DNA from: Bacteroidales bacterium
GTDB lineage: Bacteria; Bacteroidota; Bacteroidia; Bacteroidales; UBA932
Length of the DNA stretch: 56,860 bases
Direction: 5' to 3'
Assembly (NCBI GenBank): GCA_017443465.1
Contig: JAFRXO010000038.1
Span: 1-56,860 of the forward strand
The notes beneath the pieces were generated by a model. It was given only the letters and a program-made list of their open reading frames with translations, was not told the origin of the DNA and made no database searches. Shown here piece by piece: positions 205 to 54,658 of the stretch; the stretch's first letter is position 1, and each line of letters opens with the position of its first letter. The position numbers and the translations under genes were made by a program.

Positions 205-759
205 CTATTCGGCCGAATTTGCAAATTTTTCTTCAAAAAAGGTGAAGTGCACCTTGCCGTAAACCTTCTCTTTGACAAAACAGGGATGCGATGAGAATGA
301 ATGACTGCCACCGTGCTCCAGGATAAAATAATTGCCGGGCACCAGAAGCCCGTGCCCCAGGACTTTATCCGGGATAGTCTCAAGCCCGTCCAAAGCATAT
401 GGCGGGTCCGCGAAAGCAATGTCAAAGCGCTGACGGCATCTGGGAAGGAAATCGAAGACATTGTCGTGAACGACTGTCACATTCCGAAGGCCCAGGCGGG
501 AAGCCTCGCGGCGGATAAACGCCGCATTCTCCCTGGACATCTCCACGCACCAGACATTCTCAGCCCCCCTGGAAGCGAACTCGAACGAGACTGCACCTGT
601 GCCGCCGAAAAGATCGAGCACCTTGAGGTCCTCGAATTCATACTCATTGTTAAGCACATTGAACAGCCCCTCGCGCGCGAAATCCGTAGTAGGCCGGGCC
701 GCATATCCGACAGGAGGTTCGACGGAACGTCCTTTCAGCCGTCCACCTATAATCCTCAT
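205..759 (-). CDS. rsmD: 16S rRNA (guanine966-N2)-methyltransferase RsmD
   Basis: This 184-residue protein has the usual RsmD length and signatures. They are the N-terminal RIIGG (residues 2-6), RPTTDFARE (22-30), the SAM-binding loop DLFGGTG (49-55) and the catalytic ADPPY motif (117-121, an NPPY-type methylase IV motif). The family methylates the N2 of a guanine in 16S rRNA during small-subunit assembly, using S-adenosylmethionine in the cytoplasm. Its start codon overlaps the stop of the upstream DUF3822 gene (ATGA), so the two are translationally coupled. tRNA-Lys follows on the same strand, giving a small translation-related unit. The identification rests on motifs and length. Confidence 0.93.
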   Translation of the reverse strand: MRIIGGRLKGRSVEPPVGYAARPTTDFAREGLFNVLNNEYEFEDLKVLDLFGGTGAVSFEFASRGAENVWCVEMSRENAAFIRREASRLGLRNVTVVHDNVFDFLPRCRQRFDIAFADPPYALDGLETIPDKVLGHGLLVPGNYFILEHGGSHSFSSHPCFVKEKVYGKVHFTFFEEKFANSAE

Positions 760-1439
760 ATTACCTCCACCGACTTGAAATAACGGTACAGGGACATCTC
801 CTCATCATGGGACAGAGGAGTCCTGAAGCATATGGTCGAAACCTCGGGATTAAGCTGCAGCTTCTTCATGGCCAGGAAGATGAAATACTCGGCTGAAGTA
901 AAGTCCGGAGCCTGGAAACAATTGGCCAGCAGCAGGCTGCGTCCCTGTGCGACAGCAAGGCACAGCAATCCGTCCCGATAGGATGCGACTATCTTGTTAT
1001 ACTCTTCGCATTCAGGCACGGCCCTGAGGACATACCAGAGTTCCGGCAGAGGCCTGGCCTGGCTCCCGTCAGTCGAGAGAACAGTCTTGGAAATGGCATC
1101 TGAAAGGGAATCCTCAACGGAATCCGAAAAGACCATGACCGCCCCGAACTGAGGCACCTGCACAGATGAGATCCGGTCTGAAGCCTTCAGTCCGCAGACA
1201 GCTCCGAGGGTATCCCTGGCCGAAGCCTCATCGAAAAAGCTCTCCGGAACCAGGGTGCACTTAGGAGTAAACAAGGCAATCTCCACAGTGTCATACCGCA
1301 TCTGGAACTCCGGTGTAGAGAACATCCGGTCCGGCCCCATCCAGGCAGACTTCTTCTGCCCCTCGGGACCGGAAAGACAAAAAGAATATCCACTCAAGGA
1401 AACCTGAATGGATATTCTGGATGGAACTTTAGACTCCAA
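756..1439 (-). CDS. DUF3822 family protein
   Basis: This 227-residue protein resembles the DUF3822 family, which in Bacteroidota is commonly found next to rsmD, as here. No catalytic motif stands out, and its biochemical role is not known to me. The reading frame begins at a TTG (1437-1439) two bases past the upstream stop. The conserved first strand (ISIQVSLSGYSF, residues 9-20) needs a start this far upstream, and the next in-frame Met (residue 34) would delete it. TTG is therefore preferred. The gene overlaps rsmD by four bases. Confidence 0.8.
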   Translation of the reverse strand: MESKVPSRISIQVSLSGYSFCLSGPEGQKKSAWMGPDRMFSTPEFQMRYDTVEIALFTPKCTLVPESFFDEASARDTLGAVCGLKASDRISSVQVPQFGAVMVFSDSVEDSLSDAISKTVLSTDGSQARPLPELWYVLRAVPECEEYNKIVASYRDGLLCLAVAQGRSLLLANCFQAPDFTSAEYFIFLAMKKLQLNPEVSTICFRTPLSHDEEMSLYRYFKSVEVI

Positions 1440-1441
1440 TG

Positions 1442-2149
1442 CTACTCCCAGTTACCTGCGTTGTTGTTCGGCGAGGTAATGCTGCCGACCTGCAGGCCTT
1501 CATACCTGTCGGACTCCCTCCTCTCTGCATCGAGGTTGATGCGGAGCTGGTTGTCGAGTCCCTTGAGAAGCTGCTTGTAAGGCATCTTGGCCTCGAACAG
1601 AGGAACAGCGACACCTGAGACAGTCTTCACGATAGATGACATCTCGATCTTGTCACCACCGGAGAACGGCACGACATCGAGAGAATCTACGCTGAAATTG
1701 GTACGGCCGTTGAACAGAGTATCGCGGACCGGGATCTTGCTTGTCACGGAGAACACGAGGTTCTTGTCACCCTGCTGATAAAGCTTGTACAGGATCTGGT
1801 TAAGCTCCTGCTCATTGACTTTGCGATAGGTCTTCTTGACAGCATCAGTGTGGGCCATGGCGAGGGAGTCATCCCTGGAGCCGACCTGCATGGTAACAGA
1901 CATCTCGCCCTTCTTGTAGAAATCCTTGAGGGAATCAAGGGTGGAAGCGAAATGACCGTTGACACTGTTGAAAGCGACCTGAAGATCACGGATGTCTTTG
2001 AGACGCTGAATACCAACCTGCTCACGGGCAGCTTTCTGCTTGTTGAATTCAACAGGCTTCATGACACTTTTCACGATGAGCCATCCGAGAAGGACGATCA
2101 GAAGAGGAAGGATAAGGTAGCAAAGAAGCTTTTTTACAATACCGTTCAT
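1442..2149 (-). CDS. Single-pass membrane protein, function unknown
   Basis: This 235-residue protein has one strong N-terminal hydrophobic helix (about residues 8-27). A basic/polar, helix-prone region follows (about 30-60) and may form a coiled coil. The rest is a soluble domain rich in Asp-Ser. The helix looks like a membrane anchor rather than a cleaved signal, since no AxA or lipobox is seen. It heads the minus-strand unit membrane protein-DUF3822-rsmD-tRNA-Lys, with only two bases to the next frame. Homologues with this arrangement occur in other Bacteroidales, but I cannot assign a function. Confidence 0.75.
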   Translation of the reverse strand: MNGIVKKLLCYLILPLLIVLLGWLIVKSVMKPVEFNKQKAAREQVGIQRLKDIRDLQVAFNSVNGHFASTLDSLKDFYKKGEMSVTMQVGSRDDSLAMAHTDAVKKTYRKVNEQELNQILYKLYQQGDKNLVFSVTSKIPVRDTLFNGRTNFSVDSLDVVPFSGGDKIEMSSIVKTVSGVAVPLFEAKMPYKQLLKGLDNQLRINLDAERRESDRYEGLQVGSITSPNNNAGNWE

Positions 2150-2212
2150 TATTTTGTGTATTTACTAATTATCCTATTACAGGCATTTATCCGGACAAAG
2201 TTATGAAATTGA

Positions 2213-2244
2213 TTTATCAAATGCAATATAATTTTGTAAATTTG
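2213..2244 (+). promoter_or_regulatory. Bacteroidota-type promoter for the nrnA operon
   Basis: Two tandem boxes match TAnnTTTG: TAATTTTG (2229-2236) and TAAATTTG (2237-2244). A TTTA at 2213-2216, 20 bases before the second box, could act as the -33 element. The nrnA ATG lies only eight bases after the second box, so the predicted message would have almost no leader. The region also separates the divergent gene at 2149. Confidence 0.55.
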
Positions 2245-2252
2245 CAACTGAA

Positions 2253-3302
2253 ATGAATGGAGATTTTCAGATTCTGCACGAAAAAATCGCCTCGTCAGGG
2301 CGTAATGTCATAACAGCACATACGCACCCGGACGGGGATGCGATAGGAAGTTGCTTAGGATTAAAGCATTTCCTGACGGAAACATGCGGAAAATCCGCGA
2401 CGGTAATCCTTCCCGACACCCTTCCGGAAAACCTTTCCTTCCTGTGGGAAGGCGAAAACATAATCGTCGCCTCCGAGAATCCTGAAGCCGCATATGAGGC
2501 AGTCGCCCAGGCCGACATGATATTCATGCTCGACGGCAACTCGTTCGACCGGACCGCGGAACTTGAACAGACAATGCGCTCCGCCGGAGCCTTCAAAGTC
2601 CTTATAGACCACCATCTGGATCCGCACACAGACGAGTTCGACATCATTTTCTCGTCCGATGTCGTCTCCTCCACCTGCGAAGAGCTGTATTATCTCCTTC
2701 TCGAACAGCCCCAGATCCAGTCTGACCCGGCCAAACTGCCCGCAGCCACTGCCAGGGCACTGATGTCCGGGATGACCACGGACACTAACAATTTCGCAAA
2801 CTCTGTCTTCCCCCGGACCCTCAGGATGGCATCGGAACTGATTGCCGCCGGAGTGGACAGGGACTCGATTCTGGAGAATATCTACAACAATTACCGTGAG
2901 AACCGCTACCGCCTTCAGGGATTCCTCCTGGACAAGATAATGAAGATCACCCCCGACGGGGTCGCATACATTATCCTCGACAAAGAGACGGACAGGCTCT
3001 TCGATGTACTGGAAGGAGAGACTGACGGATTCGTGAACATCCCCCTGGGGATCCGCAAGGTCTGCATGAGCATATTCCTCCATGAAGACAACGGGTACTT
3101 CAGGATTTCCATACGTTCCAGGAGGCACATCATGGCCAGCGACATGGCTGTGAAGTACTTCCACGGCGGAGGCCATCCCAATGCGGCCGGAGGGAAGCTC
3201 TGGTTCAAGGAAAGGGACGGACAGGCTCCGGACATATGCTCGAAAGGGGACGCCGCCGCCTACATTGAAAAGATAACCCACGAATTCCTCTGCGGAAAAT
3301 GA
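2253..3302 (+). CDS. nrnA: DHH-family oligoribonuclease/pAp phosphatase NrnA
   Basis: This 349-residue DHH/DHHA1 phosphoesterase carries HTHPDGDAIGS (residues 23-33), the family DHH motif (119-121) and the C-terminal DHHA1 glycine loop GGGHPNAAGG (about 304-313). NrnA-type enzymes degrade short RNA oligonucleotides, and many dephosphorylate 3'-phosphoadenosine 5'-phosphate using Mn2+. Length and motif order are typical. The gene opens a long plus-strand operon and overlaps the next gene by four bases (ATGA at 3299-3302). A near-leaderless promoter precedes it. Confidence 0.9.
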   Translation: MNGDFQILHEKIASSGRNVITAHTHPDGDAIGSCLGLKHFLTETCGKSATVILPDTLPENLSFLWEGENIIVASENPEAAYEAVAQADMIFMLDGNSFDRTAELEQTMRSAGAFKVLIDHHLDPHTDEFDIIFSSDVVSSTCEELYYLLLEQPQIQSDPAKLPAATARALMSGMTTDTNNFANSVFPRTLRMASELIAAGVDRDSILENIYNNYRENRYRLQGFLLDKIMKITPDGVAYIILDKETDRLFDVLEGETDGFVNIPLGIRKVCMSIFLHEDNGYFRISIRSRRHIMASDMAVKYFHGGGHPNAAGGKLWFKERDGQAPDICSKGDAAAYIEKITHEFLCGK

Positions 3303-3850
3303 AAAGAGCCCTGACATATGCTTACATATGCCTCCTGGCCGCGGTGGTACTTCTCGTCTCATGCGAGAAAGACACTGACACTATTTTCGCCAACCAGGAA
3401 AAGGCAATCGACTCATATGTCACCTCTTTCCTCAACGCCAATCCCGACACAAAGGTCATATACAAGAACAAAGTCGTACGCCTGGTTGTCCAGGAAGGAA
3501 CAGGGCTCGACTCCCTCTCTTCCAAGGGGAAATTGACGGTCAACTACGCCGGATACGCCTTCAGCGGAGGAATCTCCAAGAATTCCCTCTTCGCCACCAA
3601 CCACGAAGCCACGGCACAGGACGCCGGCTGGAGCCTTTCCGGTGAAGGACTCTATGAACCGGTCCAGATAGACATGGGTTCAGACGAACTGGTAGATGGA
3701 CTAAAGCGCGGATTGGAAGGGGTTAAGGCCGGTGAAGAGTGCCTTATCCTCATTCCCGGAAAATACGGCTTCGGAAAAAGAAAAATCGGCACGATTCCTG
3801 CAAATTCTGCTCTGGCCTACTACGTGTGGGTCCTCAGCTTAGACGAATGA
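3299..3850 (+). CDS. FKBP-type peptidyl-prolyl isomerase lipoprotein
   Basis: This 183-residue protein has a signal peptide ending in the lipobox LVSC (Cys22), so it is predicted to be a lipoprotein of the envelope. Residues about 78-183 form an FKBP domain, with the opening strand KLTVNYAGYAFSGG and the late motif GLKRGLEGVKAGEE. FKBPs catalyse cis-trans isomerisation at proline in exported proteins. Its start overlaps the nrnA stop and its stop overlaps the next FKBP gene, so the three are translationally coupled. It is likely a folding factor for surface proteins; the client is unknown. Confidence 0.85.
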   Translation: MKRALTYAYICLLAAVVLLVSCEKDTDTIFANQEKAIDSYVTSFLNANPDTKVIYKNKVVRLVVQEGTGLDSLSSKGKLTVNYAGYAFSGGISKNSLFATNHEATAQDAGWSLSGEGLYEPVQIDMGSDELVDGLKRGLEGVKAGEECLILIPGKYGFGKRKIGTIPANSALAYYVWVLSLDE

Positions 3851-4881: not shown

Positions 4882-4884
4882 GAC

Positions 4885-6291: not shown

Positions 6292-6909
6292 ATGGAAAAA
6301 ATAATGAATTTCGTGATAGGCAGGCAGTACGGCAGCGGCGGACGGCATGTGGCCGCAGCCATTGGCAAGGAACTCGGCATATGCGTATATGACCGGGAAC
6401 TTATCGCCAAGGCCGCTGAGGAAAGCGGATTCAGCAAAGAGCTCTTCCTCAAGAGCGATGAAAAACGAAGCCTCTTCTCCCTGTCCAACTTCTTCGCACC
6501 TTCAGCCGGCAACATCCCGGTAATGGAGAACTACATCAGCGACAATGAGTTGTTCAAGATGCAGAGCGAGGTCATCAGAGGCATCGCGAAGAAAGGTCCT
6601 GCAGTCTTCGTGGGACGGTGCGCCGACTATGTCCTCAGGGACATGGCAAGGCTCTCGGTGTTCATCACGGCTCCCTTGGAGGACAGGATAAAGAGGGTCT
6701 GCGAGCGTGACGGCATCAGTCCTGAAGACGCCGGATCCTTCATAGCGAAGCAGGAGCGTACCAGGGAGACTTATTACAATTATTTCACTTTCGGCAACTG
6801 GGGAGTGGCTTCCAACTACGACCTGTGCGTCGATTCCTCCAAGCTGGGTATTGAAGGGACTGCCAGGATGATAATTGATTTCGCAGCCAGGATGGAGGGC
6901 AACAAATGA
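6292..6909 (+). CDS. Cytidylate kinase-like family protein
   Basis: This 205-residue protein matches the cytidylate-kinase-like family (Cytidylate_kin2). FVIGRQYGSGGRHVA near the N-terminus is a P-loop of the GRQYGSGG type, followed by AAAIGKELGICVYDRELI and a lid-like ERTRETYYNYF segment. The family resembles nucleoside monophosphate kinases, but its physiological substrate is often unproven, so no gene symbol is given. ATG at 6292 or 6304 would both leave the P-loop intact. The stop overlaps the next gene by four bases (ATGA). Confidence 0.85.
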   Translation: MEKIMNFVIGRQYGSGGRHVAAAIGKELGICVYDRELIAKAAEESGFSKELFLKSDEKRSLFSLSNFFAPSAGNIPVMENYISDNELFKMQSEVIRGIAKKGPAVFVGRCADYVLRDMARLSVFITAPLEDRIKRVCERDGISPEDAGSFIAKQERTRETYYNYFTFGNWGVASNYDLCVDSSKLGIEGTARMIIDFAARMEGNK

Positions 6910-16700: not shown

Positions 16701-17612
16701 TTACTTACTGACGGACATTACGGCTTCAGCGATAGAGTTCAGTTTAGTGTCAACGCTGTCAGCACGGGAAGCGAGGACACAGGGAGCTGTAGTACCGACA
16801 AGCATACCAGCCTGGCGTACGCCTTCGGCGAGCTTGGAATTGGTCTTCCAGAAGACATTGCCGCTTTCGATGTTCGGGAAGAGCAGGCAGTCGGCATCAC
16901 CGGCAACAGGGCTGACCAGTTTCTTGATTGCAACGGATTCAGCATCGATCGCCACGTCGAGGGCAAGCGGACCGTCACCGATGCAGCCCTTGATCTGGCC
17001 GCGGTCGCACATCTTGGCGAGCTGGGCAGCCTCTACGCATGCAGGCATGCTGTCGAGCATCTGCTCGGAAGCGGCGATGAATGCAACCTTGGGCTTGTCA
17101 ATACCGAAGCTGTGGGCAACGGAAACCATGAAGCCTGCGATCTTCACCTTCTGGCGGAGGTCCGGAAGCGGAATGACAGCCATGTCGCTCATGAATATGA
17201 GCTTATGGTAATTCGGGTTCTCGATAACGCCGACATGGCTCAGGAGCCCCTTCGGCGGAAGGAGACCGGTCTCCTTGTTGAGGATGGCCCTGAGGAACTT
17301 GTCAGTCGAGCAGAGTCCCTTCATCAGGACATCGCCGTTCCCGTCATGCACCATCTGGACGGCCTGGGCGACAGCCTTAAGCTCGACCGGATTGTGGATG
17401 ATTTCGAATTTGGAAGCGTCGAAACCGTTGGCCTCGCACACTGACTTGACCATTGCCTCGTCACCTACGATAGTAGCGGTAACGAATCCGGCTTCAACAG
17501 CCTTGTAGGCAGCTTCGATGGAGTGTTCGTCAACTCCCCAGGCGACTACAAGTTTCTTGCAGATATTCCTCTGCCTGAGTTCCTCAAAGAGTTCAGAGAA
17601 CTTTGTGATCAT
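16701..17612 (-). CDS. ptb: Phosphate butyryl/acetyltransferase family
   Basis: This 303-residue protein matches the PTA_PTB family in the short, single-domain Ptb form. It has VLMKGLCSTDKFLRAIL and LLSHVGVIENPNYHKLIFMSD in the first half and GPLALDVAIDAESVAIK and GTTAPCVLASRADS near the end. The family converts an acyl-CoA plus phosphate to acyl-phosphate plus CoA. It lies 21 bases downstream of the kinase gene on the same strand, so the two should act in series to yield ATP. Its start codon sits inside a CATATG. Whether butyryl-, acetyl- or a branched acyl-CoA is used cannot be told; a true Pta is an alternative. Confidence 0.85.
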   Translation of the reverse strand: MITKFSELFEELRQRNICKKLVVAWGVDEHSIEAAYKAVEAGFVTATIVGDEAMVKSVCEANGFDASKFEIIHNPVELKAVAQAVQMVHDGNGDVLMKGLCSTDKFLRAILNKETGLLPPKGLLSHVGVIENPNYHKLIFMSDMAVIPLPDLRQKVKIAGFMVSVAHSFGIDKPKVAFIAASEQMLDSMPACVEAAQLAKMCDRGQIKGCIGDGPLALDVAIDAESVAIKKLVSPVAGDADCLLFPNIESGNVFWKTNSKLAEGVRQAGMLVGTTAPCVLASRADSVDTKLNSIAEAVMSVSK

Positions 17613-17633
17613 ATGGCTATAGTTTTAATATGT

Positions 17634-20026: not shown

Positions 20027-21058
20027 TCAGCGAAGGGAGAATCCTTCTGAACGCCACTCCCTCATCGTGCCTTCGTCATCGTAGATGAGATAGGCTTCGA
20101 CTCCTTCCTCGGAACTTATGAACTCCTTCGCCGCATCGAGACCGATCACCATGCAATATGTGGCATATGCATCGGCGATTGTAGCGTTCCGGGCTATGAT
20201 GGTAGCACTGAGGAGATTGTGCGTAACAGGCCAGCCTGTACGCGGATCGATCGTATGGGCATATTTCTTCCCGTCACGGATGTAGAATTTACGGTAATTA
20301 CCCGAAGTGACCACTCCATATGCACCTCCGTCCGCCTGCCATATGCCGTCGAGGTCGGCTCCGGGAGTATTGTTCCCGTCAACCGGACGGTCGATTCCGA
20401 CGGACCATGGCTTGTGAGAAGGGTTGAATCCCTGACAGAATATTTCCCCGATGTCCACCAGCATATCCTTTACCCCGAGGCTGCCGAGCCACCCGGCAAC
20501 CAGGTCGCAGGTAAAACCCTGGGCGACCGCATTGAAGTTCAGGCGAGGATGGCTCACACCGCTTTCCAACTGCTGCAAAGATGGCATCTCCACCGTTGGA
20601 AGGACCTGTCTTACAGCCTCTTCCTGCTTTCTGAGCGCATCCGGGTCCCTCTGAAGCGAATCAGAAGTAAAGCCGAATCCCCAGAGGTCGAAAAGCGGTC
20701 CGGCAGCCACATTGAAAGCACCCCCGGACCTGGAGTACAAATCATATGAGAAACCGTACAGTTCCCTGAAAATGCCGTTGAAACTGACCTCCTCACCGGC
20801 GTTCCACCGGCTCAGGACAGATGCTTTGTTGTAGCCGGAGAAGGTCGTATCTACCAGGGTGATTATAGAATCAATTCCTGCCTTTATGGCTTCGGGAGAC
20901 ATTCCGACCTTCTTTCCATCCGCACCGCGAAGATTGAGTTTGACAGTATAGATCCCGCCCTGGGCATATCCGCTCACAGCTATATAGTCGTCCCGGACGG
21001 CGCAGGAGGATAACAGACACACCGCCATGAAAAGGACAATATGTGAGCGCAGCTTCAT
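20027..21058 (-). CDS. apbE: FAD:protein FMN transferase ApbE (lipoprotein)
   Basis: The longer frame reaches 21241, but the ATG at 21058 gives MKLRSHIVLFMAVCLLSSC, a proper lipoprotein signal, so it is used (343 residues). ApbE features are the DIGEIFCQG segment, the VVTSGNYRKF region and YAHTIDPRTGWPV, which contributes to the flavin/metal site. The enzyme transfers FMN from FAD to a Ser/Thr of exported redox proteins such as RNF/NQR subunits, using Mg2+. No NQR or RNF gene is nearby. A TAACTTTG box (minus strand 21083-21076) lies just upstream. Confidence 0.92.
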   Translation of the reverse strand: MKLRSHIVLFMAVCLLSSCAVRDDYIAVSGYAQGGIYTVKLNLRGADGKKVGMSPEAIKAGIDSIITLVDTTFSGYNKASVLSRWNAGEEVSFNGIFRELYGFSYDLYSRSGGAFNVAAGPLFDLWGFGFTSDSLQRDPDALRKQEEAVRQVLPTVEMPSLQQLESGVSHPRLNFNAVAQGFTCDLVAGWLGSLGVKDMLVDIGEIFCQGFNPSHKPWSVGIDRPVDGNNTPGADLDGIWQADGGAYGVVTSGNYRKFYIRDGKKYAHTIDPRTGWPVTHNLLSATIIARNATIADAYATYCMVIGLDAAKEFISSEEGVEAYLIYDDEGTMREWRSEGFSLR

Positions 21059-21075
21059 TCGGCAAAGAATTTGCA

Positions 21076-21083
21076 CAAAGTTA
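21076..21083 (-). promoter_or_regulatory. Putative -7 box of apbE
   Basis: TAACTTTG on the minus strand matches TAnnTTTG and lies 17 bases before the ATG. No good -33 element is seen at 20 bases, so confidence is modest. Confidence 0.4.
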
Positions 21084-21140
21084 GCGCAATTGGATGGAAA
21101 AACGAGGTTTTTCGCAATAATTTGACGATATTTGTCGAAT

Positions 21141-22085
21141 ATGAATTTGAAGGTGAAAAGAGTCTTTAAGATATTGTTTGCAGTTGCCATCGCTTCGGCT
21201 TTCATCGTCGGCTGCAAGAAAGACAAGGACACAGAAAGCATCCCCTATCTCCACGGGAGCGTAAGATTCAAATGCCCGACACATGTCAGGCCGGGCTACA
21301 CAGGCACAGCCACAGCATCCGGAGCCATAGCCCCGGACGGATCGAAAGTCAATTACTATTGGGTTGCGACCTGGAGAAAATACATTTACGACACTACGGC
21401 CGTCTATGACATCATTATGCCGAAAGACACCGTAGGCACTTTCTCCCTGTCCTGCTACGCTTACGCCAAGGGCTACAACAACATCAGCTCCACACAGTAT
21501 ATAGTGATTGTGGATGACAATCTCGGCAAGACCATTACCAAATCGGACATTTCCGAGACCGACGACCATTTCACCGATCCTCGCGACGGCACCGTCTACT
21601 ACACTACTGAAGCGAACGGACTTACATGGATGAGGAACAACCTGGCCTACAAGGACTCTGGTGTTCCCTTCAAGGACGCTGAAGCCATGAGGAAAATCTA
21701 CGGTCACTACTACAACTGGAACGAGGCGTCAAGCGCCTGTCCGGAAGGTTGGAGGCTTCCTACCGCCGCAGAATGGGAAGGGCTCTCCGAAGATGCCGGT
21801 GCCCTGATGGTAGATGCCTATTTCAACGGGGAGAGGATGTGGGAGTACTGGCCTGCAGTCAAGATTACAAACTCCACCAAAATGAGCGTACTGCCCTGCG
21901 GATATGCTATTGCAGCCTCCTACAATGCCTTCAAGGGAGAATTCGATTACGCTACGTTCTGGACTTCCGATTCAGTTGACGAGGATTACGCAACCTACAA
22001 GTACATCCACGTCAAACAGCCCAAGGTCTACTCAGCCAAGGGCGACAAGAATTCCTTCCTCGCAAGTGTCAGATGCGTGAAGTGA
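21141..22085 (+). CDS. FISUMP-domain lipoprotein
   Basis: The open frame includes a TTG at 21132, but the ATG at 21141 fits better. It gives MNLKVKRVFKILFAVAIASAFIVGC, a lipoprotein signal, and 314 residues. Residues about 150-314 match the FISUMP module (Fibrobacter succinogenes major paralogous domain): LTWMRNNLAYK, YGHYYNWNEA, CPEGWRLPTAAEWEGL and the closing ASVRCVK. The first part (about 35-130) looks like a small beta domain. FISUMP proteins are secreted or surface-exposed, with no defined activity. The gene converges on lolA with no bases between the two stop codons. Confidence 0.82.
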   Translation: MNLKVKRVFKILFAVAIASAFIVGCKKDKDTESIPYLHGSVRFKCPTHVRPGYTGTATASGAIAPDGSKVNYYWVATWRKYIYDTTAVYDIIMPKDTVGTFSLSCYAYAKGYNNISSTQYIVIVDDNLGKTITKSDISETDDHFTDPRDGTVYYTTEANGLTWMRNNLAYKDSGVPFKDAEAMRKIYGHYYNWNEASSACPEGWRLPTAAEWEGLSEDAGALMVDAYFNGERMWEYWPAVKITNSTKMSVLPCGYAIAASYNAFKGEFDYATFWTSDSVDEDYATYKYIHVKQPKVYSAKGDKNSFLASVRCVK

Positions 22086-22700
22086 TTATCTGAGATCGGT
22101 TATTAAGTAATCTTTATCCAGGGTGGACTCATCGAAACGGAAAGCTGAAAGGCTCTCCGTTTTTTCGTCGAATTTCCATCCGGAGAACACGAAATCGGTC
22201 TGTGTTCCGTCAGCCACTGTTACCGTGGCTCCTTCAAGGACAGAAGATACGAAATAGAGCTTGACCATAGAAACATCGCAGCTGACCTGCGGTTTCATGT
22301 ACACTGCCCAGGCTTTCTTGCCCTGGAATGTGTCAGTTGCCGATTTGGTGCGGACGAAAGCCTTGTCAAGATTGGAAAGCAGAAGGGCCGGATTGGCTGA
22401 GTAGCGCGCGGCACCGTTCTCTTCCACGGACTCCACTACAGCTTCCTTCCCCTCCCTGTCAACAGTCCAGCGGACTTTCCCGTCACACCAGACCTCGAGC
22501 CCGTTGCCGTTCATCCTGAATGCATCGTCCTGCACGGTGACATCTCCGCTGCCCTTGATCTTTGTCTGGGCGTTCACCAAGAAAGTGTAAGCGAAAGATA
22601 CACGTGACTCTCCGACCTTGGCGAAGAACCCGTCAACTGAGGTCTGCGCGAAAGAAGTCAGTGTACTGAAGGCCAGGACTATTGAAATCAATCTTTTCAT
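22086..22700 (-). CDS. lolA: LolA-like outer-membrane lipoprotein carrier
   Basis: This 204-residue protein has a signal peptide (cleaved after about residue 19, SFAQ) and the LolA-like antiparallel beta pattern (YTFLVNAQTKIKGSGDVTVQ, FRMNGNGLEVWCDGKVRWTVD). LolA carries lipoproteins across the periplasm. Linkage to ftsK, which overlaps by four bases (ATGA at 22697-22700), is the standard arrangement in Bacteroidota and supports the call. Sequence similarity within LolA is weak, so the evidence is pattern plus context. Confidence 0.82.
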   Translation of the reverse strand: MKRLISIVLAFSTLTSFAQTSVDGFFAKVGESRVSFAYTFLVNAQTKIKGSGDVTVQDDAFRMNGNGLEVWCDGKVRWTVDREGKEAVVESVEENGAARYSANPALLLSNLDKAFVRTKSATDTFQGKKAWAVYMKPQVSCDVSMVKLYFVSSVLEGATVTVADGTQTDFVFSGWKFDEKTESLSAFRFDESTLDKDYLITDLR

Positions 22701-25168
22701 TGGTTGCTCATAAAGGCTTTAAGGATGCCGTCCAGCGTGTTCAGGTCAGGTACGAGGACTTCACGGGGTTTCGATCCCGACTGTGGTCCCACAATGCCTG
22801 CAGCCTCAAGCTGGTCCATCACCCTACCTGCCTTAGCATAACCCATGCCAAGCCGTCTCTGGAGATCGGACGTAGACCCCTTCTGACTGATAACCACCAG
22901 TTTGGCCGCTTCTTCGAAACGCTCATCCAGGTGCTTCATATCAATCATTCCGGCGCCGTCATCCTCTGATGCCGGGTCGGGTTCCGGCAGGTAGTAAGGC
23001 ACATTGTAGCTCTTCTGCCAACCGGTCTGGGAACCTATGAAATTAGTGATTGCAGTGATTTCATCATTGTCTATGAACGCGCACTGGATACGCTCCATGC
23101 TGCTAGCGCCCGCATAGTAAAGCATATCTCCGCGTCCGATGAGTTTCTCCGCGCCGGGAGAATCCAGGATAGTAGCGGAATCCACCCTGCTGACCACCCT
23201 GAAGGCTATCCTGGTCGGGAAGTTGGTCTTGATAAGACCGGTAATGACATCCACAGAAGGCCTCTGGGTGGCCAGGATGACATGGATACCTGCAGCACGT
23301 CCCTTCTGAGCGAGGCGGATAATCGAAGCAGAGATACTTCTGGCCTGCGCCCTGGCATCGCCGCTGACTCCTCCAGTCATGGTAAGGTCAGCATACTCGT
23401 CGATGATGATAACCATGTAGGGAAGGAAATGGTGCCCGTCTGTAGGAAGCAGATGGCGCTCCTTATACTTCTTGTTGTACTGCTTGATGTTCTGCACCTC
23501 AGCCTTGCTGAGAAGCTCATAGCGGCTGTCCATCTCGATGCAGAGGGACCGGAGGATCTGGTCAGCCAGTGGTGCCTTCTTCACGATGGCATTATTGGCC
23601 TCTTCCTGCTCGTCCGAAGCTGACGGGAGAACCGCCAGATAATGCTTGAGCAGCCTGGAATAGGAGGAGAATTCGACCATTTTCGGGTCGATGAAGACCA
23701 TCTTCAGCTCAGAAGGATGCTTAGCGTACAGCAAGGATGCGATAATGACATTCAGGCACACCGACTTACCCATCTTGGTAGCACCGGCCACAAGCAGGTG
23801 GGGAGCATCAGCCAGGTCGAAGACCTTGACATTCTGGGTAATGGTGTAACCTATCGCGATCGGGAGTTCATACTTGTTGGAGCGGAAGTTGTCATCATTG
23901 AGCATCGCCTTCAGGGGGACGATGGACGGCACGTCATTCGCCACCTCTATACCAACCGAATCAGGGAGCTTGACGGTTCGCACACCGTTCGCGTGAAGGT
24001 ACATCGCTATCTCGTCCTGGAGGTTGGTGATCTGGTTGATCTTCACTCCGGGAGCCGGATAAACCTTGTACAGGGTCACGGTAGGACCTACAATGGCCTT
24101 TACATCGGAAACCTCGATCTTGAAGGTACGCAGAGTCGCGCGTATCTTGTTGTTGTTTCGCTCCAGCTCCTCGCGGGTGACTTCCTGACGGGATTCCGAA
24201 TAGTCCTTCAGGATGTCCAGAGGCGGGAACTGGTACTGAAGCAGACCTATCTCCTTGTCCTTACGGTTATCGAAAGGAGCAAGCGGTTCGCGTATCTCGG
24301 TGTCGATGTCATCACGGACGATCTCCATGCCTTTGGCCGGATTTTCTGAGTCTTCAGGATTCTCTTCATCAAGATCCTTTTCCTGATCAACAGGTGCGAC
24401 AGGATCCTGGGATACTAACTGCTCTACCGGCTGCTCCTGTACTGTGCCGGTAAAAGATTCCTCCTCCGTTTGATATAACGACTCAAATCCTGTCTCCTGT
24501 TTATACTCGGATCCAGGTCCCGTTTCGGACTCGGTTACATAATCATATGCATAATCATCGCGTCCAGGCACCTCCTCGGCACGCGGCTCCTCGGCTCCGA
24601 TGCGGATAAGCCAGTCAGTGAAACGCCTGCTCAGGAAGAACAGCCATATGGCCAGAAGGATTAGGAGAAGGAGGAAGGTAATGACAGGGCCGAACAGATT
24701 GTTGCTCCATCTCACCACAGAGGATCCGCACTCCCCTCCCAGACCTCCGCCGAAAGAATTGTCAGGACCGGCAAGGCTGGCTGCCCAGGACAACAGGAAA
24801 GATGCGATCATGGCACCGAAAACAATTATCAATGTGCCTTTTACGATCGGGAAATACTCTTTTCGGAAAAGCAGGCGGACAGAGACCGCAGCCATGATTA
24901 CAATCAAGGCGAAACTGCCCAGCCCGAAGAATCTGCCGACGAGGAAATTGGCCCAGCGGTAACCCAGCTTCCCGGCAAGATTGTGGACTGATACGTCCTC
25001 TGACATCATCGCCGGATCGGAGAGGAGACTCTGGTCGACCTTCCAGGTAAAAAGATATGAAATACAGGCTATAAGAGTCAGAAGAGTCACAACTGCCATA
25101 AGGCAGCCGGAGATCACCCTTATCTTAGCCTTGTCGGAATCATCCAGGTTTTTCCAGAAAGACAACAT
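22697..25168 (-). CDS. ftsK: DNA translocase FtsK/SpoIIIE
   Basis: This 823-residue protein has four N-terminal transmembrane helices (about 20-185) and a long acidic Glu/Asp/Gln-rich linker (about 205-300). The motor domain has Walker A GATKMGKS near residue 460, and IIIDEYADLTMTGG contains the Walker B. The C-terminal winged-helix gamma domain is SDLQRRLGMGYAKAGRVMDQLEAAGIVG. FtsK pumps DNA at the septum and activates XerCD at dif. Length and domain order are normal. It follows the DUF4290 gene by 12 bases and overlaps lolA. Confidence 0.96.
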   Translation of the reverse strand: MLSFWKNLDDSDKAKIRVISGCLMAVVTLLTLIACISYLFTWKVDQSLLSDPAMMSEDVSVHNLAGKLGYRWANFLVGRFFGLGSFALIVIMAAVSVRLLFRKEYFPIVKGTLIIVFGAMIASFLLSWAASLAGPDNSFGGGLGGECGSSVVRWSNNLFGPVITFLLLLILLAIWLFFLSRRFTDWLIRIGAEEPRAEEVPGRDDYAYDYVTESETGPGSEYKQETGFESLYQTEEESFTGTVQEQPVEQLVSQDPVAPVDQEKDLDEENPEDSENPAKGMEIVRDDIDTEIREPLAPFDNRKDKEIGLLQYQFPPLDILKDYSESRQEVTREELERNNNKIRATLRTFKIEVSDVKAIVGPTVTLYKVYPAPGVKINQITNLQDEIAMYLHANGVRTVKLPDSVGIEVANDVPSIVPLKAMLNDDNFRSNKYELPIAIGYTITQNVKVFDLADAPHLLVAGATKMGKSVCLNVIIASLLYAKHPSELKMVFIDPKMVEFSSYSRLLKHYLAVLPSASDEQEEANNAIVKKAPLADQILRSLCIEMDSRYELLSKAEVQNIKQYNKKYKERHLLPTDGHHFLPYMVIIIDEYADLTMTGGVSGDARAQARSISASIIRLAQKGRAAGIHVILATQRPSVDVITGLIKTNFPTRIAFRVVSRVDSATILDSPGAEKLIGRGDMLYYAGASSMERIQCAFIDNDEITAITNFIGSQTGWQKSYNVPYYLPEPDPASEDDGAGMIDMKHLDERFEEAAKLVVISQKGSTSDLQRRLGMGYAKAGRVMDQLEAAGIVGPQSGSKPREVLVPDLNTLDGILKAFMSNQ

Positions 25169-25180
25169 CGCCTTTAGATC

Positions 25181-25825
25181 CTATTTCTTGTTCCTGTGTT
25201 TGTTTCGTCCGCCCCTTCCATTCCTGCCGCCGGCTATCATATTGGGACGTTGGAAGTTAGCCTCATTTGAAATCCTTGGAAGTACAAGGCCTTCCGGGAT
25301 GGATATCCTCCCTCCGGAAAGCTTCTCGATGTCGGCGAATATGGTTCCGTCGGCCACGCTGTCCTTGTTCCATATCAGATACTGCTGACGCATATAGCAT
25401 GCAAGGGAACGGATCATCTCAGTCTTCATCTGGCCCTCTTCCTGCTCTGCGATCAGGTCTATGATGCTCTCGATATTCCGTCCGTAATGCCTGGCCTTCA
25501 CCGGATTGCTCTGCAGGGGTATAGGCATGGGCCTGAGGTTGATCTGCTCCTCTGTCGGTACAGAATACGGGGAATCTATGTCAAGGTCGAGCCCGGCCAT
25601 TATATAGAGCTGGTCCCAGAGTTTCCTCTCCCAGTTTTCCTCAGAACGCACCTGAGGATTAAGCAGTTCCATCACCTTCACTACGGCCCTGGCCTGTTGC
25701 GTACGCTTCTCCCTGTCAGGAATGTCCCTCAACTGCTCAGACATATTCAGGACATTGCGTCCGTACTCAGGCATCTGCAGTTTCTCTCTCTCGGTGTTGT
25801 ATTCCAGTTTTACAGTTTCTTCCAT
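25181..25825 (-). CDS. DUF4290 family protein
   Basis: This 214-residue protein resembles DUF4290, a Bacteroidota-restricted cytoplasmic family (EYNTEREKLQMPEYGRNV at the N-terminus). The C-terminus is a basic Gly/Arg/Asn/Lys tail (GGRNGRGGRNKHRNKK) that could bind nucleic acid. No enzyme motif is visible. It lies between the nuclease genes and ftsK on the same strand. The start codon is inside a CATATG (25823-25828). Function is unknown; association with cell-wall or division genes is only contextual. Confidence 0.8.
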   Translation of the reverse strand: MEETVKLEYNTEREKLQMPEYGRNVLNMSEQLRDIPDREKRTQQARAVVKVMELLNPQVRSEENWERKLWDQLYIMAGLDLDIDSPYSVPTEEQINLRPMPIPLQSNPVKARHYGRNIESIIDLIAEQEEGQMKTEMIRSLACYMRQQYLIWNKDSVADGTIFADIEKLSGGRISIPEGLVLPRISNEANFQRPNMIAGGRNGRGGRNKHRNKK

Positions 25826-25888
25826 ATGTTTCAGTAATTCTATGAACTACAAATATAATAAAAAACGTCCGCCAATTCAAACCCCATC

Positions 25889-41740: not shown

Positions 41741-41761
41741 CATATCATATGGATTAATACT

Positions 41762-44658: not shown

Positions 44659-44734
44659 ATAACGGATTTGATGATTCAAATACGAAGATACTCAAAAAAT
44701 TACGTATATTCACGCACAATAGACCTGAAAGCAT

Positions 44735-46237
44735 ATGAAACATCTCGCAGCCATTCTGTTATGTACCGCAGCCCTGATGTCTGGCGCTGCATGTTCCGGA
44801 AGCAAGATAGGATACGAACCCGATACTGAAACCGTACTCCGAAACCCCCTCAACGGCTGGGTGATGTACCTCGGCCGCAGCTGGGATGATTCGTTCTGGG
44901 AGAAAAACGGCTACGATGCCATGCCCACCTCGTCCGGAGAGACAGTAATGGTCAGTGATTATGCCAACACGGCATATGTCCGCACCAATTGGGTATCCTT
45001 CGAACCCGAAGAAGGGAAATATGCTTGGCTGGATCCGGATTCCAGGTTGAACAAACTCTTCCGCTCCGTCCTGGACAGGGGGATGAAACTCAGCTTCCGA
45101 ATTGTGGTTGATGGCCGCGACCAGCGCCAGAATACCCCGGACTACGTGTTCGACGCCGGAGCCGGGTATTTCACTTCGATGGTTGGCAGGAACGAAGTCC
45201 GTTCCCCTTATCCTGACGATCCGGTGTTCCAGGAAAAATACAGCAAGTTCATCGAGGCGCTTGCCGCCGAATACAACGACATCGACAAGGTTGACTTCAT
45301 CGATGCCTATGGTTTGGGCAAATGGGGTGAAGGGCACAGCCTTGTCTATAAGGATTCCACCAAGAACAGCGAAGTCATGGAGTGGATTACCAGTCTGTAC
45401 GCCCGGACCTTTACTGAGATACCTCTCGTCATAAACTACCACCGCCTGCTCGGTGAGCCCTCGAAGGATGGATGGGGCCCCGCTTCTAAAGTGTCGGAAG
45501 GACTTATCCGTCAAGCTATTGCAAACGGATATAGCCTGCGTCACGATGCCTTTGGAATGAACGGATACTGTCAGGACTGGGAAAAGGATTTCGCTGCTGA
45601 GTGGAAATTCCGCCGCCCCATTATCTTCGAAGGAGGATGGATTACCGCAGCGCACCACCGTTACTGGATCGATCCGAGCGGTGCATACCGCGAAGGGCAC
45701 TCCGAGGATGTACGGATGGGAGAATTCAAGGCGGCAGAAGAAGCTCATGTAAACATGATGGACCTGCGCGTAAACGATGAGATCCGCTCCTGGTTCGGAC
45801 AAGAATTCGACTTGGTCAAACGTTTCGTGGCAGAAGGCGGCTACAGGCTTTATCCTGAATGGGTGAAAGCTCCCGCCAGGGCCTCCGGCACCTTGAGTGT
45901 CAAGTACTCCTGGAAGAATATGGGCTGGGGTTACTGTCCTGTAAACATCCCACAGTGGAACTGGAGGTACACCGTCGGCATAGCCCTGTTGGACTCTGAG
46001 GGACAGCCCGTGAAGAAATGGGCATCAGACGAAACCGACTTGTCTCAGTGGATCAAAGGCAATTCATACCAATATGCTCAGGAGGTGTCTCTCGAAGGCA
46101 TCGCCCCCGGCCGCTACACCCTGGCAATCGGCCTGGTGGACAGGAAATCCGACCTCTCCCCCGGACTGGATGTGGCTGTGGATCCTTCCCTCAAAACCGG
46201 CGGCTGGGTAAAAGTCAGGCAGCTGACAGTGAAATAG
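44735..46237 (+). CDS. DUF4832 family lipoprotein, glycosidase-like
   Basis: This 500-residue protein has a lipoprotein signal (ALMSGAAC). An N-terminal barrel-like region resembles clan-A glycosidase-type DUF4832/DUF4874 proteins (LRNPLNGWVMYLGRSWDD, WLDPDSRLNKLFRSVLDRGMKLSFRI, FIDAYGLGKWGEGH). A C-terminal beta domain follows (about 385-500). E-rich segments such as FEGGW could hold catalytic residues, but these are not proven for the family. The ATG lies in a CATATG (44732-44737). It precedes the pectate-lyase-like gene by 41 bases on the same strand, so a common role in uronic-acid glycan breakdown is plausible. Confidence 0.82.
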   Translation: MKHLAAILLCTAALMSGAACSGSKIGYEPDTETVLRNPLNGWVMYLGRSWDDSFWEKNGYDAMPTSSGETVMVSDYANTAYVRTNWVSFEPEEGKYAWLDPDSRLNKLFRSVLDRGMKLSFRIVVDGRDQRQNTPDYVFDAGAGYFTSMVGRNEVRSPYPDDPVFQEKYSKFIEALAAEYNDIDKVDFIDAYGLGKWGEGHSLVYKDSTKNSEVMEWITSLYARTFTEIPLVINYHRLLGEPSKDGWGPASKVSEGLIRQAIANGYSLRHDAFGMNGYCQDWEKDFAAEWKFRRPIIFEGGWITAAHHRYWIDPSGAYREGHSEDVRMGEFKAAEEAHVNMMDLRVNDEIRSWFGQEFDLVKRFVAEGGYRLYPEWVKAPARASGTLSVKYSWKNMGWGYCPVNIPQWNWRYTVGIALLDSEGQPVKKWASDETDLSQWIKGNSYQYAQEVSLEGIAPGRYTLAIGLVDRKSDLSPGLDVAVDPSLKTGGWVKVRQLTVK

Positions 46238-49266: not shown

Positions 49267-49287
49267 TTCCCCCGTCTGACCGCCCTG

Positions 49288-51462: not shown

Positions 51463-51508
51463 GGTTACTAAGTTTGTTTGTAAAAATAATTATTATTAAA
51501 AAAAATTG

Positions 51509-51525: not shown

Positions 51526-51542
51526 TTACAATATCACTTATT

Positions 51543-52064: not shown

Positions 52065-52086
52065 GATTTAAAAGACATTACCAATA

Positions 52087-52130
52087 AAAAGCGGGGAGCT
52101 CCGAAATGAAGCTTCCCGCTTTTCTTTTTC
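52087..52130. terminator. Bidirectional intrinsic terminator
   Basis: AAAAGCGGGGAGCT (52087-52100) pairs with AGCTTCCCGCTTTT (52110-52123), one wobble, followed by CTTTTTC on the plus strand. On the minus strand the stem is followed by TATTGG after the T-run. It separates the convergent barrel and CDF genes. Confidence 0.82.
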
Positions 52131-52154
52131 CCGTAATAACGGAAATCCGGATTA

Positions 52155-53258
52155 TCACTCGCTGTAATTGTGGTCTATGACGATTGTCACCTGCATATCC
52201 GGAGCCAATGGCTGTATTTCTTCGGTCAGTCGCCGGCAAAGGGCCGCATCATCGTGGGACGAGATGTCTGGTACCACATCCACAGACAGCATCCTCTCCT
52301 TCTCAGAACAATAGAAAGCGTGTACCTGGACAAGCTCCTTATGGGCAGCTAGTGCCTTCATCACCTTAGCCTGAAGGTCAGTACGCTGGTTGTCTCCTGT
52401 AGCTACGGCATATATGCCCACAGTCATGATGATTCCATGCCGGACGGACATCAGAGTGGAGATCTTGCGTGTGAGGCCGTGGATTTCATGTGCGGACAAG
52501 GTGTCAAGGACGCTGATATGCAATGAACCGATCATCACGTCCGGGCCATAGTTATGGAGGATGATATCGAACACCCCACGGACACCGTCAAAACCCATGA
52601 TCTCCTGCTTGATTTCCTTAATGAGTCCGGGTGAGACCCTGGCACCTAGCAGTTCATTTACAGGAGAAGCCAGCATCTCGATACCCGCCTTGATAATCAA
52701 TATGGAAATCAGGGCACCGAGGATGCCGTCAAGGGATATCCCCCAAATCAGCATGATCCCGGCCGACACTAGCGTAGCCGTAGTGATGATGGCATCGAAC
52801 AGAGCATCCGATCCGGATGCCGTCAGGGCATCGCTTTTCAGCTGCTCCCCTTTCTTCTTGACATACCATCCCAGCAGGAGTTTGACGACAATGGCGACTA
52901 TGATGACGATGAGAGTCGGAGTCGTATAGCTCGGCTCCGCAGGATCAATGATTTTCTTCACCGACTCGATGAGAGAGGTGATTCCGGCGGACAGGACTAT
53001 GACGGAAATAATGATGGCACTGAAGTACTCGATGCGCCCGAAACCAAAAGGATGCTCGCGGTCTGCCGGACGCTGCGACAGCTTAGTGCCTATAATAGTG
53101 ATAACACTTGAAAGGGCATCACTGAGATTGTTCACCGCATCCATGACTATGGCCACGCTGTTCGCGATAAAGCCAACCGCAGCCTTGAATGCCGCTAATA
53201 ACACATTGGCGACAATCCCGATGACACTTGTACGAATGATCTGAGAACTCCGGTCCAT
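52155..53258 (-). CDS. CDF family metal exporter, probably Mn2+-type
   Basis: This 367-residue protein has six transmembrane helices and a C-terminal cytoplasmic domain of the cation diffusion facilitator type, with HPFGFGRIEYFSA after helix 2. The metal site can be read from the sequence. Helix 2 carries N43-x3-D47 (DAVNNLSDALSS) and helix 5 carries D151-x3-D155 (SDALFDAI). This N/D plus D/D pattern is associated with manganese exporters such as MntE rather than Zn exporters (H/D plus H/D). Metal choice is inference. A GAGCATATGCTC palindrome lies just upstream (53267-53278). Confidence 0.87.
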   Translation of the reverse strand: MDRSSQIIRTSVIGIVANVLLAAFKAAVGFIANSVAIVMDAVNNLSDALSSVITIIGTKLSQRPADREHPFGFGRIEYFSAIIISVIVLSAGITSLIESVKKIIDPAEPSYTTPTLIVIIVAIVVKLLLGWYVKKKGEQLKSDALTASGSDALFDAIITTATLVSAGIMLIWGISLDGILGALISILIIKAGIEMLASPVNELLGARVSPGLIKEIKQEIMGFDGVRGVFDIILHNYGPDVMIGSLHISVLDTLSAHEIHGLTRKISTLMSVRHGIIMTVGIYAVATGDNQRTDLQAKVMKALAAHKELVQVHAFYCSEKERMLSVDVVPDISSHDDAALCRRLTEEIQPLAPDMQVTIVIDHNYSE

Positions 53259-53338
53259 ACACGATTGAGCATATGCTCCTGTTTTGCGTTTCTTATATGC
53301 CTTTGAACGATAAAGTTATAAAAAAAACAAAGAAATGC

Positions 53339-53346
53339 TATATTTG
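53339..53346 (+). promoter_or_regulatory. Putative -7 box of the thioesterase gene
   Basis: TATATTTG matches TAnnTTTG and lies 27 bases before the ATG at 53374. No -33 TTTG is at 20 bases. Confidence 0.4.
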
Positions 53347-53373
53347 AATCAAAGGGATAATATAAATACTGAT

Positions 53374-53784
53374 ATGACACTGAAGGATTTCCTCAACTCC
53401 AACGACAGTTTCGCGGCTGGATGCGGGGCGCGGCTCGTAGAAGTCTCTCCAGGGACTGCCGTTGCCATTATGGAAGTGACCCCGGCACATCTAAACGCCG
53501 GTGATGTCTGCCAAGGCGGTGCGATTTTTACGCTGGCAGACCTTGTGTTCGCGGCATTGGTGAATCAGGGCGAAAACCTCACCTTCGCCATTAATTCTAC
53601 TATCTATTACCATATTTCCGCCCACGAGGGGGACACGCTTCGGGCAGAAGGGCGGCTCACCTGCAATCACCATCGTATTCCTTCCGTAGAGGTGGAAGTC
53701 ACGAATCAGGAAGGCATACGCATAGCCACCTTTACCGGACAAGCCTACACCAGCCGCAATCCGATTTGCATTTCTCCTAAGTAA
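53374..53784 (+). CDS. PaaI-type acyl-CoA thioesterase (hotdog fold)
   Basis: The frame extends to 53335, but ATG 53374 (MTLKDFLNSNDSFA) matches the usual N-terminus, giving 136 residues. The hotdog signature is HLNAGDVCQGGAIFTLADLVFAALVN, with the catalytic-type Asp at the start of the helix. PaaI-like thioesterases hydrolyse aryl- or acyl-CoA, for example to rescue CoA. No phenylacetate genes are nearby, so a housekeeping role is likelier. Confidence 0.85.
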   Translation: MTLKDFLNSNDSFAAGCGARLVEVSPGTAVAIMEVTPAHLNAGDVCQGGAIFTLADLVFAALVNQGENLTFAINSTIYYHISAHEGDTLRAEGRLTCNHHRIPSVEVEVTNQEGIRIATFTGQAYTSRNPICISPK

Positions 53785-53818
53785 TACCTGGATCTACTTT
53801 CTCAGTACTGTCAGTAAT

Positions 53819-53851
53819 AGCCACATGACGGCTAGCCACACAATGACGGCT
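53819..53851. repeat. Short imperfect tandem repeat
   Basis: AGCCACATGACGGCT (53819-53833) is followed by AGCCACACAATGACGGCT (53834-53851), the same unit with a three-base insertion. The intergenic stretch 53785-53914 otherwise shows no gene. A role is not evident. Confidence 0.4.
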
Positions 53852-53914
53852 GTTTTCCGCTACAACTCAGTATTTACCGATCAAATTGATGAAGCGGCTC
53901 CACCCGGCCTCACA

Positions 53915-54658
53915 TTAATCATAATATTCTGTGCCTATAACCCGCAAACCTAGACTGAGGGGCATTTTGAAATCATCCCCTCTGTCATATGCATTTTTGA
54001 AATAACCTTTGCAGACCAGTGCCCCTTTACCGACAAATTCAACAAACCGGACTGCAAAGTAATATTTACCCGGTTCCAGGATCAATGTCTCCGGCTCGTT
54101 GAAGACTAGTTTTTTCCATCCGTCATCAATAGTCAGCACAGCTCTATCTGCTTCATCAAGTTTTGCCTCCAATTCCGCCTTGTCCACACGGGTCGGTTTT
54201 CTAATTGAAACCAGGCTGCCCCATTCCTCATCTTTAATTCCACCATAGCTGTTGGAAAGTCCGAAACTGGCTCCAGCCCATCTGACTCCTTTACCCAGAA
54301 TGGTAGTGGATTTTTCTTTCCTCGGCACCACTACGACTTCCGGCAGCGCATTATACACCATGGAGATAAACAGACTGTCCTTTGCTGAGTAATATCGCCC
54401 CGGGGGCAGAGAAACAGTTTCATATGAAACATGGAAGAAACGTATGTCCTCACTTTTGCCTTCAGGGATCCTCAACGAGAAAAAGCCATCGATATCGGAA
54501 ACGGTGAAAACCGAGTCTTTGGGTATACCTATGCTGACATACTCTATGCCTTCTCCTTTCTCATTTACTACCCGGCCGAAAATAGTATGATAACTTTGGG
54601 CGTTGACGATAAATGAGAAAAACAGAAGTGATATGGGAACAAGGTATCGGTTATTCAT
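53915..54658 (-). CDS. Carboxypeptidase-like regulatory domain protein
   Basis: This 247-residue protein has a signal peptide (about 1-20). An N-terminal carboxypeptidase-regulatory-like beta domain (about 25-105) follows: TIFGRVVNEKGEGIEYVSIGI, then FTVSDIDGFFSLRI. The remainder is a beta-rich region without a recognised family (KSTTILGKGVRWAGASFGLSNS marks its start). Such domains in Bacteroidota occur on TonB-dependent receptors and surface proteins, but no receptor domain is present. It is likely periplasmic or surface-located. Confidence 0.75.
   Translation of the reverse strand: MNNRYLVPISLLFFSFIVNAQSYHTIFGRVVNEKGEGIEYVSIGIPKDSVFTVSDIDGFFSLRIPEGKSEDIRFFHVSYETVSLPPGRYYSAKDSLFISMVYNALPEVVVVPRKEKSTTILGKGVRWAGASFGLSNSYGGIKDEEWGSLVSIRKPTRVDKAELEAKLDEADRAVLTIDDGWKKLVFNEPETLILEPGKYYFAVRFVEFVGKGALVCKGYFKNAYDRGDDFKMPLSLGLRVIGTEYYD

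Follow-up and report, generated by a model that had tools for sequence, protein, structure and literature searches.

Genome-wide enrichment of the palindrome CATATG in a Bacteroidales bacterium and its sister genome

What makes a bacterial genome accumulate one short palindrome? The question is raised by contig JAFRXO010000038.1 of a Bacteroidales bacterium of the UBA932 lineage (assembly GCA_017443465.1), whose 56,860 nucleotides were analyzed in full and are called the window here. The window is the entire contig C2 of a draft genome (G000) of 2.65 Mb, which comprises 81 contigs and is 96% complete. The hexamer CATATG occurs in it exactly 100 times against a first-order Markov expectation of 13.2, and by the first-order ratio of observed to expected counts it ranks top among all 4,096 hexamers. 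An initial annotation had estimated about 100 copies where 13-14 are expected, spread over 396..54426, and had taken some 25 copies of CATATA to mean that the whole hexamer is needed. The extent is correct (the last site lies at 54421-54426, and a palindrome has no strand), CATATA is present in 25 copies, and the sites occupy all three reading frames, as the annotation also held: 50 are read as NCA TAT G, 29 as NNC ATA TG, and 12 as CAT ATG. By the same set of open reading frames (ORFs), the remaining sites comprise three across a start codon and six tagged as intergenic.

Extent of the enrichment

The whole genome contains 4,230 copies of CATATG and 79 of the reversed control GTATAC, the reverse of the usual palindrome avoidance, as had been proposed. 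A sample of 726 kb (27% of the genome, in 15 contig pieces) was studied in detail, with 565 ORFs defined by simple length rules and no trained gene finder. Stretches reading as N were left out, as was contig C8 (L010), a 6.5 kb assembly contig with one CATATG that is perhaps binning contamination or foreign DNA. The sample holds 1,330 sites, at 1.46-2.15 per kb across all 15 pieces. Markov chains of orders 1, 2, 3, and 4 predict 145, 333, 621, and 1,100 sites, so that orders 3 and 4 account for 47% and 83% of the count; these two predictions are circular because CATATG is contained in its own sub-words. With sites masked during training, orders 1-3 predict 123, 239, and 229. Shuffling of synonymous codons within the 565 ORFs yields 263 ± 13 sites (maximum 296 in 100 shuffles) against 1,223 observed, with z of about 74; a separate shuffle run gave z of about 45. 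Codon preference is therefore insufficient, in agreement with the annotation, and the count is far from the level that composition predicts.

Most synonymous opportunities for CATATG are taken, in this and one other uncultured gut-type bacterium, its sister genome G415. By phase, the 1,223 ORF sites divide into 175 CAT ATG, 728 NCA TAT G, and 320 NNC ATA TG. His-Met is spelled CAT ATG in 175 of 180 cases, [SPTA]-Tyr-[VADEG] is spelled NCA TAT G in 728 of 969, and Ile ahead of Cys or Trp, where the preceding residue has a possible C-ending codon, is spelled C ATA TG in 320 of 449. His codons ahead of other residues are CAT in 903 of 1,946 cases (first 336 kb).

The force on this nucleic-acid word visibly alters start-codon context and protein sequence. 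CAT stands directly ahead of 76 of 410 ATG starts, whereas the fraction in 59 relatives is 7 of 624. Two further start-calling methods give 98/568 against 10/1,005 and 92/507 against 16/829, and the sister genome gives 6/45, 10/70, and 9/67 under the three methods. HM outnumbers MH by 180 to 108 here, while the counts in relatives are 92 and 159. The corresponding figures for IC and CI are 313 and 204 here and 374 and 307 in relatives, and the Tyr triple occurs 969 times forward and 828 times reversed here, against 1,131 and 1,409 in relatives.

The closest named relative by FtsK is RUG14879 (90%), and the best 17 of 26 named FtsK relatives are Bacteroidales or Bacteroidia metagenome-assembled genomes (MAGs), several with animal-gut names and two of them Candidatus Cryptobacteroides species. 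The FtsK of G415 shares 92% identity with that of G000, and no other listed match is above 65%, which leaves the two genomes as an isolated pair. In a survey of 400 genus genomes (own included) from a larger group, only these two exceed 1,000 CATATG per Mb by rounded sizes, with 3,353 sites in about 2.1 Mb in the sister. G203 comes third at about 720 per Mb, with a sample (37 vs 27) close to what codon usage predicts. Sampled relatives, some picked for high or low raw counts and others chiefly among the best FtsK matches (G407, 3.3 kb, was omitted), contain 237 sites against a codon expectation of 216 when all 59 are pooled, and none is as strong; the highest are G107 (28 vs 9.1), G220 (19 vs 8.8), and G413 (11 vs 4.2). 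At the other extreme, G140 has a strong deficit, with 12 sites in 1.6 Mb. Samples of 18.7-20 kb picked for low counts from G140, G126, G329, and G068 (L141, L142, L145, L146) contain none, and 20 kb of G252 (L188) contains one. The genus thus ranges from avoidance to near saturation of the word. Among the 394 other genomes of a 395-genome phylum sample (own included), none is above about 450 per Mb, the densest being G619 with 1,075 sites in about 2.4 Mb. No paper listed by the literature searches describes such an enrichment for this group, in line with the annotation's view that it is undescribed.

Other words deviate in congeners. In G107 (L123-L126), ATATAT (33 vs 12.5) is raised together with CATATG, and CCATGG, TCATGA, GCATGC, and AGATCT hardly occur, perhaps through avoidance of CATG and GATC. 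TCCGGA lies above the codon shuffle in several congeners (G203, 71 vs 29; G168, 23 vs 7.7), and the non-palindromic CATCGG is enriched in G089 (L143, L144; 44 vs 12). A viral scan for triple CATATG found at least 80 loci. Seven were analyzed, six of the ten highest by observed/expected ratio plus one lower; in these stretches, selected for clusters, CATATG reaches 1.6-3.8 times codon expectation and is the top word in none. Viral Ile opportunities are mostly unused (5/23), and two closely inspected loci are local repeats. No inference is drawn from the viral clusters.

Exact CATATG is favored place by place

In both genomes a force favors the exact word at each individual place, whatever the codon phase and also across gene starts; its odds and its independence of spacing were measured in G000. 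Relative to the synonymous background, the odds at position 2 are 22.9, 20.7, and 17.2 for A over C, G, and T; at position 3, 34 for T over C; at position 4, 33 for A over either C or T; and at position 5, 18 for T over C. At position 1, C is favored over G, T, and A by 6.1, 5.9, and 11.8, and position 6 offers no synonymous choice. The tested interior substitutions are thus disfavored 17-34-fold and outer ones 6-12-fold, with transitions and transversions about equal. That the tested substitution types are affected alike argues against mutation bias and is as expected of word recognition.

Gaps between sites are exponential (n = 1,315; coefficient of variation (CV) 1.02; Kolmogorov-Smirnov (KS) p 0.42). 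For [SPTA]Y[VADEG] opportunities, the fraction used stays at 0.74-0.79 in every bin of distance to the next site between 0 and 800 bp; for His-Met it is 0.93-1.00, and for the Ile class 0.62-0.81 between 0 and 1,600 bp without clear trend. Random spacing and equal use near existing sites argue against roles as an uptake signal, as a Chi-like site, or as a one-per-kilobase mark, and spacing independence argues more generally against functions that saturate with density. Past 800 bp, Tyr-class use falls (20/45, 5/15), which may reflect islands. One of these is the initial 11 kb of contig C47 (L210:1-11000), perhaps a recent acquisition, which encodes a weak SusD match as well as two SusC-type proteins and uses 1 of 15 opportunities; in a gene of 1,100 codons on C12, none of 7 is used. 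Such low-use islands fit recent, unconverted arrivals, in which case the process would be slow.

A 52 kb alignment with the sister at 83% DNA identity supports the same force on the word. Of 107 own sites and 92 sister sites, 80 are common, whereas same-composition words are conserved in 679 of 1,648 cases, other palindromes in 225 of 631, and all hexamers at 37%. The flanks of CATATG show no conservation above that of control-word flanks, and flanking-base preferences are close to reverse-complement symmetric, as expected of a reader of duplex DNA.

Broader motifs were tried and rejected. Whichever single flanking base is added, the enrichment stays between 3.6 and 5.3, so an extended motif was discarded. 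With sites masked, half-sites CAT and ATG separated by gaps of 1-8 reach 1.02-1.27, and CATATG itself 4.66. Among everted arrangements, ATGNCAT gives 1.33 with masking, and ATGCAT drops from 1.83 to 1.24. Avoidance of near misses was also rejected: neighbors beyond synonymous reach are close to 1 (CAAATG 1.23, CAGATG 0.98, CATGTG 1.10, CATAGG 1.01), so conversion is a better reading of the low neighbors than avoidance.

Within the window, sites start at 396, 829, 2491, 3233, 3315, 3325, 3414, 5042, 5064, 5294, 6147, 6378, 6971, 8215, 8616, 8906, 8921, 9384, 9988, 11095, 11169, 12036, 12660, 15580, 16122, 17610, 17891, 17918, 18341, 19699, 20164, 20317, 20340, 20743, 24544, 24645, 25823, 26374, 26431, 26506, 26655, 26743, 26822, 26914, 27430, 28181, 29134, 29313, 29472, 30266, 30864, 31424, 32923, 33202, 33544, 34693, 34935, 35568, 35900, 36798, 36879, 36930, 37155, 37667, 38079, 38741, 39080, 39795, 40124, 40781, 40838, 41140, 41746, 41788, 41906, 42257, 42588, 43094, 43113, 43761, 44300, 44481, 44618, 44627, 44732, 44973, 46293, 47187, 47958, 47975, 48734, 49368, 49446, 49809, 50491, 50526, 50930, 53270, 53986, and 54421. 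Those over gene starts lie at 17610..17615, where CAT precedes the ATG of a phosphate acetyl/butyryl transferase ORF (16701-17612, minus strand), at 25823..25828 (ORF 25181-25825, minus), and at 44732..44737 (ORF 44735-46237, plus). Four of the six sites tagged as intergenic (3315, 3325, 3414, 6971) fall inside ORFs 3299-3850 and 6906-8207, which the ORF set had dropped. The other two are outside all ORFs of at least 300 nt: 41746..41751, upstream of the ORF starting at 41762, and 53270..53275, between the divergent ORFs 52155-53258 (minus) and 53335-53784 (plus). The longest gap without sites is 20743..24549, with flanking sites starting at 20743 and 24544. It contains most of the FtsK gene, which uses both of its two opportunities, so the gap reflects scarce opportunities.

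Candidate explanations

The account that is tentatively preferred, at clearly less than even probability, is a spacing-independent force on the exact word that resembles the highly iterated palindromes (HIPs) of cyanobacteria and works through biased repair or conversion by a putative sequence-specific protein. The force would act on DNA through this protein, probably a symmetric dimer reading CAT and ATG half-sites with no gap between them. The protein would bias which version survives when one strand or copy is CATATG and the other is a near miss. Its likeliest form would be short-patch, site-specific biased repair or conversion, a molecular drive without benefit to the cell; the lean toward repair arises because no benefit is then required for thousands of sites. 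The fuller proposal is more tentative still: a methylation-independent, word-specific drive, confined to one small clade, in which the putative protein converts near misses or heteroduplexes singly, leaving the genome near saturation at synonymous opportunities, including start contexts and some amino-acid pairs.

Several points weigh against the biased-repair account. No candidate protein or gene for CATATG recognition was found. Most data come from a 27% sample of one MAG, and the comparison with the sister covers 52 kb. Ile-Trp is not elevated (IW/WI 199/170 here, 292/194 in relatives). Outside every ORF of at least 300 nt in any frame, 7 sites occur in 14.1 kb (order-1 expectation 2.8), with 3 in 28.4 kb of relatives (6.7 expected) and none in 0.9 kb of the sister. 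For ORFs of at least 200 nt the counts are 3 in 9.5 kb against 2 in 18.5 kb of relatives, and for at least 150 nt they are 0 in 6.4 kb (1.2 expected) and 1 in 11.6 kb of relatives. When genes are called by codon usage, intergenic sites number 98 in 55.2 kb here against 13.5 expected; the sister has 12 in 5.9 kb, and relatives have 28 in 134 kb against 37.8 expected. The strict length filter also removes sites because each CATATG provides an ATG on both strands, and codon-usage calling admits clipped gene ends into the intergenic set. True intergenic enrichment may be guessed to lie between both estimates, at about 4-8-fold over relatives; within genes it is ninefold (1.71 vs 0.19 per kb). The intergenic evidence is mixed, and an unopposed drive on DNA should have made noncoding DNA richer in sites than the strict counts indicate. 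Because intergenic enrichment depends on gene calling, action at the DNA level is no firmer than likely, and the recount lowers confidence in biased repair and raises it in an RNA-level effect. Finally, additive selection on binding sites predicts a nearly identical pattern, and the data do not separate the two.

Such selection, which takes up the nucleoid-protein site suggested in the annotation, is only slightly less probable than biased repair. CATATG would bind an abundant nucleoid or chromosome protein, each site bringing a small independent benefit with scaled selection of about 3. A binding energy would be consistent with spacing independence and with the weaker effect at outer positions, and a comparable word-level force exists in the same genome, where GTATAC is strongly avoided (9 vs 118 by codon shuffle in the 726 kb). 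However, with most binding functions the gain from further sites should fall off, or the sites should be spaced, and neither is seen up to 800 bp; the benefit would also have to outweigh amino-acid change, as in the HM/MH ratio, and no cognate protein was found. GTCGAC (103 vs 269) and TATATA (49 vs 120) are also low in the same shuffle, and the avoidance of GTATAC occurs in a genome where the methyltransferase families searched have no match above cut-off.

Methylation, one of the possibilities raised in the initial annotation, is doubtful. The word would be the target of an orphan methyltransferase from an unrecognized family or missing from the assembly, and it shares with HIP1 the concentration of deviations at outer positions, as far as PMC4390886 describes them. 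Profiles PF01555 and PF02384 were run on the own genome, and PF02086, PF07669, PF00145, and PF05063 on 16 or 17 genomes; control matches for PF01555, PF02384, PF02086, PF07669, PF00145, and PF05063 were found in 11, 13, 4, 11, 10, and 0 of 14 genomes. None of the six families has a match above cut-off in G000, with short stretches masked and the PF05063 control silent. Two PF07669 matches below cut-off are PrmC and a TrmN-like protein, the latter below its own cut-off. The sister (79% complete) has none above cut-off for PF02086, PF07669, PF00145, or PF05063, again with the last control silent. The evidence thus points to a force acting on a single six-letter word genome-wide.

It is improbable that CATATG is maintained at a useful density for DNA uptake, as a Chi-like site, or to mark strands for mismatch repair. 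The density of 1.6 per kb is within the range of 300-2,700 per Mb given for HIP1 in PMC4390886, and the window contains AddA/AddB-like ORFs and a ComEC-like ORF at 18919-20007 (plus strand). That ORF has 362 aa and is below the ComEC_Rec2 cut-off, spacing is random, and Tyr-class opportunities are used equally within 50 bp of another site (103/140) and at 400-800 bp (135/175). Uptake sequences are reported in PMC1939737 as evenly spaced and non-palindromic. The annotation's suggestion of an uptake signal is accordingly disfavored, while its doubt about a Chi-like role agrees with the lack of a spacing effect.

Less probable again is an effect on CAUAUG in messages, at the level of RNA or translation, or a product of codon and dicodon composition. 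It draws on the 1,223 of 1,330 sites that lie in the ORFs used, the predictions of unmasked order-3 and order-4 chains, the strongly affected gene starts, and the few strictly intergenic sites. Against it stand the codon-shuffle z values, the use of all codon phases, the nearly reverse-complement symmetric flanks, and the count between divergent genes by codon-usage calling, with 28 sites in 16.7 kb here and 8 in 39.3 kb of relatives; an RNA word would also be palindromic only by chance, 1 in 64. Plain context-dependent mutation bias, also suggested initially, is equally remote: it fits exponential spacing and all codon phases but should be specific to substitution type, whereas the transitions and transversions tested at positions 2-5 are shifted alike.

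Comparison with known systems

Restriction-site avoidance is a word-level force on palindromes. CATATG experiences the same kind of force with opposite sign, and some congeners, G140 among them, show strong deficits of it. Restriction-modification would entail a cognate methyltransferase together with avoidance; none was found in the families searched, and both G000 and G415 show the reverse of avoidance. Chi sites are short, abundant words in coding DNA and are directional, whereas the CATATG palindrome has neither orientation nor spacing effect.

The uptake sequences of Pasteurellaceae and Neisseriaceae, which PMC1939737 explains by molecular drive where it treats them, are likewise short words accumulated genome-wide. 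They are longer, non-palindromic, and reported to be evenly spaced, whereas CATATG is a 6-bp palindrome with exponential spacing.

The closest likeness is to HIP1 and the alternate HIPs. The relevant passages of Elhai 2015 (PMC4390886) describe these cyanobacterial words as sporadic in phylogeny, with a word enriched in one strain possibly deficient elsewhere, and as deviating most at outer positions. CATATG is similarly a single palindrome that greatly exceeds chance across the genome and numbers hundreds to thousands of copies per Mb; it too is sporadic and most tolerant of deviation at its outer position. It differs in occurring in Bacteroidales, in being an AT-core hexamer with almost no extension, and in having no visible ceiling near one site per kb. 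Its genome also lacks a recognizable methyltransferase for the word or its core across the six Pfam families. The reason for HIP sequences is unsettled, and the model outlined in PMC4390886 links them to DNA methylation. CATATG is a HIP-like word without a recognizable methyltransferase, with near-saturated synonymous opportunities and random spacing, and the contrast between an affected sister and hundreds of congeners without enrichment makes the question testable.

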